Source of the DNA: Flagellimonas oceani
GTDB lineage: Bacteria; Bacteroidota; Bacteroidia; Flavobacteriales; Flavobacteriaceae
Length of the DNA: 64,000 bases
NCBI RefSeq assembly: GCF_011068285.1
Contig: NZ_CP049616.1
Location: 1,406,501-1,470,500, forward strand
Reading direction: 5' to 3'
Positions 33,526 through 35,738 of the stretch are shown here, one piece after another; position 1 is the first letter of the stretch; every line of letters starts with the position of its first letter. The position numbers were made by a program, and so were the translations under genes. The notes under the pieces were generated by a model that was not told the DNA's origin, did no database searches, and saw only the letters and a program-made list of their open reading frames with translations.

Positions 33526-33644
33526 GGTTTTTATTCTTTTGGGTTGGTTTGTTTACGAAGGTACCTACTATGAGCGGAGTGGTAAATAAAAAAAATGTAA
33601 TAATATGTTGGAATTTTTTGCATATTTGCATCATCATGAAGCTA

Positions 33645-33753
33645 TAAGAATTATGTACACGATAAATGTCACCGTTGGCCAAGGGCCAATCAAGTAACCG
33701 AATCTCCTTCGGCTAACCCGACATTGACTTACTTTTTTCACACATAATTCTTA
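33645..33753 (+). promoter_or_regulatory. Candidate structured leader RNA (riboswitch-like) of MATE gene
   Basis: The 5' leader of the MATE gene can fold into a compact form. P1 is a perfect 12-bp stem (33645-33656 with 33742-33753). Inside lie P2 AATGTC/GACATT (33665-33670 with 33720-33725), P3 TTGGCC/GGCCAA (33675-33680 with 33684-33689, loop AAG), and P4 CCGAA/TTCGG (33698-33702 with 33708-33712). In addition AAGTAA (33692-33697) is complementary to TTACTT (33729-33734), crossing P2 as a pseudoknot. The 3' strand of P1 ends four bases before ATG 33758, so P1 would hide the initiation region. A CATATTTG box at 33621-33628 may be the promoter. It fits no riboswitch class I can recall. That it is a ligand sensor is inference. 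Confidence 0.6.
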
Positions 33754-33757
33754 GATA

Positions 33758-35167
33758 ATGACACATCAACATACAAACTCATTTAAAAAATTTATCCACT
33801 ATTTCTGGATAGCTATCTCTGGAAAGGAAACGGAGTTTACCACGGGAAGTATCCGAAAGGCCATTTTTATGCTTTCCATTCCCATGATCTTGGAAATGCT
33901 CATGGAATCGATTTTTGCTCTGGTCGATATTGCCTATGTATCCAAAGTAAGCGTAAATGCCGTGGCCACGATCGGGCTCACGGAATCCGTAATCACATTG
34001 GTCTATGCTTTGGCCATTGGACTCAGTATGGCCGCCACCGCGGTTGTTGCCCGTAGGATTGGCGAAAAAGATGTGGATGGTGCGCGAATTGCGGCCGTGC
34101 AGGCCATAAGCTTAGGCGTAGTGATTTCCATAATAATAGGAATTGTTGGAATTATCTTCGCCAAGGACATTTTGGCCCTGATGGGAGCTGAGCCCGATTT
34201 GATTGCAGAGGGTTACGGATACACCCAATTCTTGATCGGCGGTAATATTACAGTGGTACTGTTGTTCTTGATCAATGCAATATTCCGTGGTGCGGGCAAT
34301 GCATCCATTGCCATGTGGGCCTTGGTACTTTCCAACGGCCTCAACATCATTTTGGACCCGATGTTCATTTTCGGGTTTGGGCCAATTCCAGAAATGGGCG
34401 TAAAAGGTGCGGCGGTCGCTACCAATATTGGTAGGGGAAGTGCCGTATTGTTTCAGTTGGGAATTTTGTTCTTTGGATGGGGCAAGATCAAGTTGATGGC
34501 CAAGGACCTGGTTTTGAACTTTAAAGTAATGCTCAATTTGATCAAGGTCTCATTGGGCGGGATTGCCCAGTTTTTGATAGGAACCTCAAGTTGGATTTTT
34601 CTAATGCGGATCATGTCCGAGTTCGGAAGCGAAGTTTTGGCAGGATACACCATTGCCATTCGTGTGATGATGTTCACCTTGATGCCGTCTTGGGGAATGA
34701 GCAATGCGGCGGCTACATTGGTAGGTCAAAACCTTGGCGCCAAACAACCGGACAGGGCAGAGCAATCCGTTTGGAAAACTGGAAAGTACAATGCCTACTT
34801 TATGGGCACGGTTTCTTTGGTCTATCTCATTTTTGCCAATACCATCATATCTTGGTTCAATACAACACCCGAAGTCGTAAAAAGTGGTGCGCTTTGTCTT
34901 CAGGTGATCGCACTTGGGTATATTTTCTACGCCTACGGCATGGTCATGACCCAAGCATTCAATGGAGCAGGCGATACCGGAACCCCGACCAAGATCAACC
35001 TGATTGCTTTTTGGGCCTTCCAATTGCCGTTGGCCTATATATCGGCATTGGTTCTGGGCTGGGGGGCAACAGGTGTTTTTGTGGCCATCACCTCGGCGGA
35101 AATACTCATAGCGGTTTTGGCCATGATATGGTTTAAAAAAGGAAAGTGGAAGAAAGTCCAAGTATGA
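33758..35167 (+). CDS. MATE family efflux transporter
   Basis: 469 aa with twelve membrane segments in two similar halves, the NorM/MepA-type multidrug and toxic-compound extrusion fold. The first half has MLSIPMILEMLMESIFALVD and FRGAGNASIAMWAL, and the second half repeats the pattern near GAQAFNGAGDTGTPT. It exports a small molecule using a cation gradient; the substrate is unknown. Its start is preceded by a folded leader RNA, which suggests that expression responds to a metabolite or toxin. The toxin-antitoxin pair follows 51 bp downstream. Confidence 0.92.
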   Translation: MTHQHTNSFKKFIHYFWIAISGKETEFTTGSIRKAIFMLSIPMILEMLMESIFALVDIAYVSKVSVNAVATIGLTESVITLVYALAIGLSMAATAVVARRIGEKDVDGARIAAVQAISLGVVISIIIGIVGIIFAKDILALMGAEPDLIAEGYGYTQFLIGGNITVVLLFLINAIFRGAGNASIAMWALVLSNGLNIILDPMFIFGFGPIPEMGVKGAAVATNIGRGSAVLFQLGILFFGWGKIKLMAKDLVLNFKVMLNLIKVSLGGIAQFLIGTSSWIFLMRIMSEFGSEVLAGYTIAIRVMMFTLMPSWGMSNAAATLVGQNLGAKQPDRAEQSVWKTGKYNAYFMGTVSLVYLIFANTIISWFNTTPEVVKSGALCLQVIALGYIFYAYGMVMTQAFNGAGDTGTPTKINLIAFWAFQLPLAYISALVLGWGATGVFVAITSAEILIAVLAMIWFKKGKWKKVQV

Positions 35168-35201: not shown

Positions 35202-35218
35202 ATCGTAAATTGAAATCC

Positions 35219-35452
35219 ATGGACATAAACATTCAAAATAAAAAGATTGAATTGATTCAATGGCTTTCTACCTTGAACGATGAATCCATTATTGAGAAAA
35301 TAATGAAGCTTCGGGAAAATGAGAAAGTAGATTGGTGGGAAGAAATTTCCAAAGAGGAAAAAAAATCAATTGAAAATGGTTTGAAGGATGCTGCTTCCGG
35401 AAATATGGATTCGCATTCCAATGTGAGAAAACTATATGACAAGTGGTTATAA
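35219..35452 (+). CDS. Antitoxin, addiction-module type
   Basis: About 77 aa with a hydrophobic head (INIQNKKIELIQWLSTLND) and an acidic, Trp-containing tail (VDWWEEISKEEKKSIENGLKDA). The pattern matches small Bacteroidota antitoxins coded upstream of RelE/ParE toxins. I use the ATG at 35219; a TTG three codons upstream is possible. It overlaps the toxin gene by 17 bp, as in many TA pairs, and probably binds both the toxin and the operator in front of the gene. Confidence 0.8.
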   Translation: MDINIQNKKIELIQWLSTLNDESIIEKIMKLRENEKVDWWEEISKEEKKSIENGLKDAASGNMDSHSNVRKLYDKWL

Positions 35453-35738
35453 AATTCTGTGGACCCACAATGCAATTGTTGAATTGAAAGGAATCATCGA
35501 ATATTTGCAGGAAAATTGGACGGAAAAGGAATTGGGAAATTATGCTCAAGAACTTGACCATACCATTGAACTGATTTCCAAGAATCCTGAATTTTTTCAG
35601 TCATCAGAAAAGAAAGACAACATTCGAAGGGCTGTCATTGCCAAATACACTAATCTTTATTACAGGATCAATTCCAATTCGGTAGAGATACTTTCGCTAT
35701 TTTCCAATAGACAGAGCCCGGACAAACTCAAAGTTTAA
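35436..35738 (+). CDS. RelE/ParE family toxin
   Basis: 100 aa, the size of RelE/ParE toxins. It has the family start (YKILWTHNAIVELKGIIEYLQENW), a central ELISKNPEFFQ helix, and the basic strand RRAVIAKYTNLYYRIN, followed by the C-terminal VEILSLFSNRQSPDK. RelE cuts ribosome-bound mRNA and ParE poisons gyrase; which one applies cannot be told here. It lies 18 bp upstream of the Cys/Met PLP gene, which may therefore be read through from the TA promoter. Confidence 0.85.
   Translation: MTSGYKILWTHNAIVELKGIIEYLQENWTEKELGNYAQELDHTIELISKNPEFFQSSEKKDNIRRAVIAKYTNLYYRINSNSVEILSLFSNRQSPDKLKV

Follow-up and report, generated by a model that had tools for sequence, protein, structure and literature searches.

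A conserved leader RNA with miniature reading frames, probably a ribosome-operated switch, upstream of a flavobacterial MATE exporter gene

The leader of a MATE family efflux transporter gene in Flagellimonas oceani is a conserved, structured RNA that probably acts in cis as a ribosome-operated translational switch, i.e., a ribosome-occupancy attenuator, of the exporter. Its helical structure, the covariation of its helices, two short open reading frames (ORFs) and the pairing of their region with the MATE start emerge from sequence comparison. The window, that is, the whole stretch of DNA that was analyzed, comprises 64,000 nucleotides of the 4.61 Mb host genome. The presumed controlled gene (33758..35167, + strand, start ATG at 33758) encodes a MATE family efflux transporter of 469 aa that matches Pfam PF01554 (E 1.9e-62) and, in profile comparison, scores above the cutoff of TIGR00797 matE; no equivalog (MepA, NorM, SolL or other) was found above its own cutoff. 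The genus is Allomuricauda/Flagellimonas (Muricauda), Flavobacteriaceae, as indicated by named relatives whose MATE proteins are 98% identical. Directly 3' of the MATE gene are two small overlapping ORFs on the + strand, 35210-35452 and 35436-35738; the latter matches the ParE toxin (PF05016, E 1.7e-5), and the former, without a Pfam match, may encode an antitoxin.

An initial annotation of this leader had described a pseudoknotted, ligand-sensing RNA able to hide the start of the MATE gene. Its core, a conserved structured leader over the MATE start, holds; the pseudoknot is not confirmed, and the ligand-sensing aptamer finds no support in the comparison of leaders. The promoter box and the two short ORFs had been overlooked.

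A covarying leader over the MATE start

The four nested helices of the initial annotation are confirmed in the sequence of the + strand. P1 consists of a 5' arm (TAAGAATTATGT, 33645..33656), which overlaps the stop of the first ORF (mini-ORF) and the start codon of the second (uORF2), and a 3' arm (ACATAATTCTTA, 33742..33753), which is its perfect complement over 12 pairs and spans positions -16 to -5 relative to the MATE start codon. Inside P1 lie P2, formed by AATGTC (33665..33670) and GACATT (33720..33725), the hairpin P3 within uORF2 (TTGGCC-AAG-GGCCAA, 33675..33689, arms 33675-33680/33684-33689), and the hairpin P4 immediately 3' of the uORF2 stop (CCGAA-TCTCC-TTCGG, 33698..33712, arms 33698-33702/33708-33712). 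The perfect P1 stem of 12 bp is longer than any found in 500 dinucleotide shuffles of the leader (maximum 11), and the leader fold of -29.1 kcal/mol (z-score -3.7) was matched in stability by 0/200 shuffles. A pyrimidine-rich stretch just 5' of the P1 3' arm (33727-33741) recurs in genus leaders and is perhaps a standby site for ribosomes.

A search for MATE orthologues in 60 genomes of the genus yielded 58 leaders from 57 genomes, one genome contributing two; two of the 60 were without an orthologue (best E 7.7e-18 and 2.0e-20). All 58 leaders align, and one further leader, L324, agrees by eye. In a plain MAFFT alignment the full 12-pair P1 is present in 11/58, with the outermost pair formed in 12/58 and the inner pairs in nearly all; P2 is whole in 48/58, P3 in 18/58 and P4 in 24/58, the low whole-helix counts of P3 and P4 being due to a shift of register in both. 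Counted by alignment cells, 91.8% of P1 and 95.1% of P2 are paired in the genus. Against these values, only 56.7% of cells are paired in the crossing helix AAGTAA/TTACTT that had been annotated as an H-type pseudoknot. We rejected it as a conserved helix: its letters are present in the window, yet the window's own leader is the only one of the 58 in which it is whole. AAGTAA constitutes the last sense codon and the stop of uORF2.

RNAalifold applied to the plain MAFFT alignment recovered only P1, and no two-sided changes. Since the register shift makes this method blind to P3 and P4, a covariance model was built from 24 hand-chosen leaders and used for realignment. In the resulting 69 rows, an alignment fitted to the structure in which relatedness inflates the covariation counts, 90.8% of cells are paired and 25/31 modelled pairs have changed on both sides (P1 6/11, P2 6/7, P3 6/6, P4 7/7). 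Two-sided cells number 204 versus 54.7 in shuffles, and none of 500 shuffles, which ignore relatedness, reaches any of the measures. As a control, one arm was displaced by 1-3 columns; only 40-45% of cells then pair, and two-sided cells are far fewer than in the true register. As a realignment of this kind favours the modelled structure, P1 was additionally examined by correlating its states over a tree. The variants AG/CT and GA/TC agree on both sides in 28/29 tree rows with clean states, and the fewest changes on the MATE tree are five for each side; on this quick tree of 56 MATE proteins there are 5 independent pairs, 1 of them on well-supported branches, which is too few for a sign test. 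None of the outcomes that the initial annotation had listed as contrary to its reading (no conservation, no covariation, a match to an Rfam family) was observed, and the proposal of a structured leader able to hide the MATE start is supported by its conservation and covariation.

The covariance model (R1) finds a single site in the genome of the window, namely the leader of the 33758-35167 MATE gene. Among 397 genomes of the family it matches 46 at E up to 1, representing 31/237 genera, one of them via a chance match. With the exception of L109 (E 0.7), which is not 5' of any MATE gene, these matches lie upstream of a MATE orthologue (45/46), 44 of them directly; L108 is located about 150 bases farther from the MATE gene than usual. 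A scan of the order gave four matches in another family (L111-L113, L116) that precede MATE genes, 64-67% identical, and two (L115, L118) that do not. In L091, L092 and L112, the last from another family of the order, P2 appears by eye to have been replaced wholesale. Beyond the order, 28 class-level MATE loci of at most 60% identity (27 at the right place, L203 not) had no clear leader by eye, except for a hint in L180. In this locus from another family of the class, with a MATE protein 60% identical, CCTATGAAG with the ORF MKLIMPIF-stop is, by eye, a perfect complement of CTTCATAGG adjoining the MATE start, and might possibly be the same switch beyond the order.

Short reading frames at the predicted mRNA 5' end

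Upstream of P1 lies a probable sigma-A -7 box, CATATTTG (consensus TAnnTTTG; 33621..33628, + strand), the position of which is conserved: a box of this kind is found 6-8 nt 5' of the mini-ORF in 58/58 genus leaders and in 39/42 further leaders of the same type, referred to as class A. A flavobacterial transcriptome maps the box to -12..-5 (PMC9723704). Together with the 7-nt gap in the window, this would put the mini-ORF ATG at about +4, and transcription is predicted to start at ~33633. The mini-ORF itself, ATG AAG CTA TAA (MKL-stop; 33636..33647, + strand), has a conserved start and stop and, at this position, would be near-leaderless. In this phylum few mRNAs are leaderless: 5.5% in F. psychrophilum (PMC9723704), while about 3.7% of those of Bacteroides thetaiotaomicron have 5' UTRs shorter than 10 nt (PMC7366714).

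ATGAA[GT] occurs in 106 of 112 class-A-type leaders, a set that includes 8 class-A-like leaders without a covariance-model match, chosen by eye. A stop (TAA, TAG and TGA are all used) follows at codon 3 or 4 in 104 of the 106, the other two being seven-codon ORFs. Of the 8 leaders that already have their stop at codon 3, just 3 show another stop in the following triplet, which argues that the RNA by itself does not account for retention of the mini-ORF stop. In the genus, ATGAAG (33636-33641 in the window) is invariant in 58/58 leaders, wobble base included. As a counterpoint, coding leaves the G of this invariant hexamer unexplained, and the ATA triplet of uORF2 is also conserved in the genus. 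Exceptions are L105 and L116, in which the mini-ORF ATG is lost, and L120 and L122, which have uORF2 and no mini-ORF.

uORF2 (33653..33697, + strand) comprises 14 codons followed by TAA (MYTINVTVGQGPIK; genus pattern M[YS][AT]IDVT..). It begins five bases past the mini-ORF stop with its start codon inside P1, and it ends between P3 and P4. All 58 genus leaders have a uORF2 of 13 or 14 codons; that the lengths are multiples of three was given no weight, since the way in which the ORFs were delimited dictates it. In 40/51 leaders from outside the genus, 11-15 sense codons precede the first in-frame stop, versus 2/51 and 13/51 for the other frames. The usual uORF2 ATG is lost in L087 and L091, where a new in-frame ATG overlaps the mini-ORF stop, and L106 and L150 are without a uORF2 ATG. 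In L085 (L085:1501-1627) the stop has changed from TAA to GAA and the frame continues past the MATE start. Both the mini-ORF and uORF2 are presumably translated.

Additional MATE copies were observed in two genomes of the genus. In G004, a second, truncated copy (residues 1-134, open frame 142 aa) is found ~4 kb from the full gene; both copies (L055, L059) have their own class A leader, with MSAIDVIALSGNC and MLVIDVMAVPGII as uORF2. The second MATE gene of G007 (L061), 52% identical, is by eye without such a leader.

Leader classes across the family

MATE orthologues are present in 142/397 family genomes, of which G363 is without a gene start, leaving 141 regions. For 96 of the 97 orthologues without a covariance-model match the upstream region was examined, the remaining one being without a gene start. 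Many of these regions contain another kind of leader, class B, in which the mini-ORF ATG ATT NNN TAA/TAG (MI(V/A/D/I/N)-stop, i.e., MIV, MIA, MID and others) begins 4-8 bases 3' of the box, which corresponds to about +1 to +5. Base pairing joins the start region of this mini-ORF to the MATE start and in many cases involves the first MATE codons (ATGCAATCA). The RNAalifold consensus of 43 class B rows, one of which, L161, is misplaced, being a class-A-like leader that happens to fit the class B pattern, closes a helix between mini-ORF start and MATE start. In many class B leaders the perfect complement measures no more than 6 bp, and most single leaders fall short of significance (12/44 at p<0.05 versus shuffles). 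The mini-ORF stop is lost in L140 (ATG ATT GTA TAC). Other leader forms adhere by eye to the principle, for example with seven-codon ORFs (MKLTELY-stop, MKMNDIA-stop) and with 9-10 bp complements in L177, L303, L306 and L312.

As in an attenuator, a short ORF with conserved start, frame and stop lies upstream of the presumably regulated gene, and the leader-ORF region pairs with the initiation region of the target, in agreement with the P1 covariation. The pairing was scored in class A (98 leaders) and class B (43 leaders); L105 and L108 were left out because the searched stretch contains no ATGAAG. Six or more expected pairs between the 5' ORF region and the MATE start region were found in 98/98 class A leaders versus 61/294 shuffled, and at least 4 in 42/43 class B leaders, the exception being L161, versus 34/129 shuffled. 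A fixed rule applied to all 141 family regions identified a 2-3 codon ORF so placed in 95/141, versus 21/1300 shuffled regions, and an ORF of at most 8 codons in 103/141, versus 54/1300, counts that include some probable chance ORFs (MQI-stop, MKKK-stop, MHIGGIMK-stop). At least 5 expected pairs between ORF region and MATE start occur in 101 of the 103 rule-positive regions. The 38 negative regions comprise 8 without a located gene start and several misses of the rule, and many divergent orthologues lack a leader by eye; the existence of regions without such an ORF indicates that the switch is dispensable. Of 79 named records with sufficient flanking sequence, 72 carry the mini-ORF of class A and 3 that of class B. 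Class A hosts are Flagellimonas, Allomuricauda, Zobellia, Maribacter, Ulvibacterium, Croceivirga and others; class B hosts are Meridianimaribacter, Wocania and Hyunsoonleella.

The comparison between genus, family and leader classes bears on two explanations in which the short ORFs would play other roles. The first is a ligand-binding riboswitch, in which a small molecule would stabilize or open P1-P4 and thereby gate MATE translation, the short ORFs being accidental or secondary. A multi-helix leader conserved with covariation, a sequestered MATE start, an exporter as the downstream gene and a well-conserved genus-level stretch, ATAGATGTCACC, would all fit such an RNA. The aptamer envisaged in the initial annotation nevertheless has no core common to the leaders: junction and loops vary, P2 is replaced in the three leaders named above, and the core letters differ among divergent class A leaders and class B, so that different junction and P2 sequences precede the same orthologous gene. 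The pseudoknot is incomplete in 57/58 genus leaders, and the two ORFs keep frame and stop. Rfam searches returned only two tRNAs for the whole window, one chance match for the leader (16.1 bits with gathering at 80, E 6.7) and none for 11 related loci; membership of the leader in a known Rfam family was rejected, as no match in the leader or the related loci reached the gathering score. We consider a riboswitch unlikely. A very short ORF at the predicted mRNA 5' end, pairing with the MATE start in most leaders, points instead to a ribosome-operated switch rather than to a metabolite pocket, which, if true, cautions that covarying leaders before transporters are not necessarily riboswitches.

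The second explanation is a classical attenuator based on nascent-peptide arrest, in which uORF2 would encode a stalling peptide (MxxIDV) and the mini-ORF would be minor. Ala, Thr and Ser are residues that favour chloramphenicol and linezolid arrest, and in the genus codon 3 of uORF2 is Ala/Thr/Ser in 49/49 14-codon ORFs and 8/9 13-codon ORFs (the ninth has Val). This pattern fails outside the genus, and codon 3 was rejected as an arrest motif for these drugs. There, codons 2-4 vary widely, and IDV is gone where P2 changes (MKIIYNILVLLAIAG, MYSIATVALANQK); in class B leaders no uORF2 is seen by eye at that place. A conserved arrest peptide was thus not found in uORF2 across the leaders. As the peptide is unconserved in divergent leaders and IDV follows from P2, sensing via a specific nascent peptide is highly improbable.

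Ribosome position, the proposed switch and known systems

Flavobacterial ribosomes initiate without Shine-Dalgarno pairing (PMC6847099, PMC9976891); in Flavobacterium johnsoniae, initiation benefits from weak structure and from adenines at -3, -6, -12 and -13 (PMC6847099). We calculated MATE-start accessibility by partition-function folding of 98 class A leaders (96-97 for uORF2 positions), with the ribosome assumed to cover -14 to +16 relative to the P-site codon. Predicted accessibility, an outcome that is partly by construction because blocking one P1 arm must free the other, is 0.31 for unoccupied RNA, 0.69-0.72 when a ribosome occupies the mini-ORF or the uORF2 AUG, 0.64 at uORF2 codon 4, and 0.32 at codon 7 or the stop; in class B it rises from 0.47 to 0.65-0.66 with a ribosome. 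The modelled pattern suggests that the gate would open only for a ribosome located at the extreme 5' end.

In the switch that we propose, exposure of the MATE start is predicted to depend on where the ribosome stands. Transcription would begin a few bases 5' of the mini-ORF, and the mRNA would open with a near-leaderless AUG AAG (NNN) stop. As long as the 5' end is empty, P1, with P2-P4 inside, would pair the end of the mini-ORF and the start of uORF2 with the region upstream of the MATE AUG; since Bacteroidota ribosomes, which use no Shine-Dalgarno pairing, perform best when that region lacks structure, MATE would be off while P1 is closed. If a ribosome is held up on the mini-ORF or at the first uORF2 codons, it would cover the P1 5' arm, leaving the MATE start exposed and the gene on, whereas behind a ribosome at uORF2 codon 7 or the stop P2 and P1 would re-close and turn it off. 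From the function of the gene and from known attenuators (bmrCD, DUF1127) we infer that the leader regulates MATE and that its natural signal would be slowed initiation or early elongation, likeliest caused by translation-inhibiting compounds exported by the pump.

The same geometry would by itself account for conserved P1 and ORF starts if the leader were a constitutive damper, in which P1 merely lowers MATE translation, the short ORFs load ribosomes that partly open it, and nothing is sensed. Peptide sequences that are unconserved outside the genus agree with this explanation as well. Covariation of P2-P4 and a second short ORF would, however, exceed the needs of a weak start site, and we regard a mere damper as rather unlikely.

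A broader version of the ribosome-operated switch is conceivable, although we give it somewhat less than even credence: a regulator used throughout the family, in which a near-leaderless ORF of 2-3 codons senses the state of translation irrespective of the peptide and a ribosome held at the 5' end switches MATE on. As two or more leader classes that differ in sequence follow one principle, this would be a peptide-independent attenuator for bacteria without Shine-Dalgarno initiation and, if true, a leader-ORF switch whose ORFs come close to the minimum possible size. The element apparently represents a conserved, undescribed variant of ribosome-operated translational control. No description of it was found among the literature matches listed, subscription papers and preprints aside, a judgement of novelty that leaves out the 64 structured 5' regions of Flavobacterium psychrophilum in the supplement of PMC9723704. 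For the phylum, no report of such exporter control was found among the matches listed. The element raises the questions of whether ribosomes of Bacteroidota translate near-leaderless mini-ORFs, whether an ORF of 2-3 codons suffices to sense translation inhibitors when the peptide carries no signal, and which substrate this widespread MATE pump exports.

Several known systems share single traits with the element. The guanidine-IV (mepA) riboswitch is likewise a leader RNA preceding MATE genes; there, guanidine is reported to control transcription, and the leader described here has no match among Rfam families. Leader peptides of the erm type arrest through the combination of drug and nascent peptide. 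In erm-type translational attenuators (PMC5118997, PMC11264731), as here, a short ORF lies upstream, the start of the resistance gene is hidden by pairing, and a stalled ribosome frees that start, as we propose for MATE. The MATE leader departs from the erm type in its first ORF, which has only 2-3 codons and would be near-leaderless, in the direct pairing of the region of this ORF with the target start region, and in its unconserved peptide. The odc1 (uORF-25-1) motif (PMC8632094) resembles the leader in that its P1 sequesters the ribosome binding site and a short uORF is conserved; it differs in its occurrence in Alphaproteobacteria, in start codons that are few bases apart, in a conserved 11-residue peptide, and in a pseudoknot nearby. 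In Arabidopsis, the minimal ORF AUGUAA of the NIP5;1 transporter mRNA (PMC11915504) also serves as a sensor via ribosome stalling, but this eukaryotic system acts through boron-triggered mRNA decay together with transcriptional control, and its abstract mentions no start-site pairing. The bmrB-bmrCD system of Bacillus subtilis (PMC4191407) shares an antibiotic-responsive short ORF controlling a multidrug exporter, yet it operates by transcription attenuation via a terminator, concerns an ABC transporter and uses an ordinary leader ORF. The DUF1127 uORF attenuator of Sinorhizobium meliloti (PMC12218461) differs in acting by transcription attenuation, with another gene and another structure; like the MATE leader, it is a proposed monitor of ribosome availability that combines occupancy with base pairing at the uORF start.
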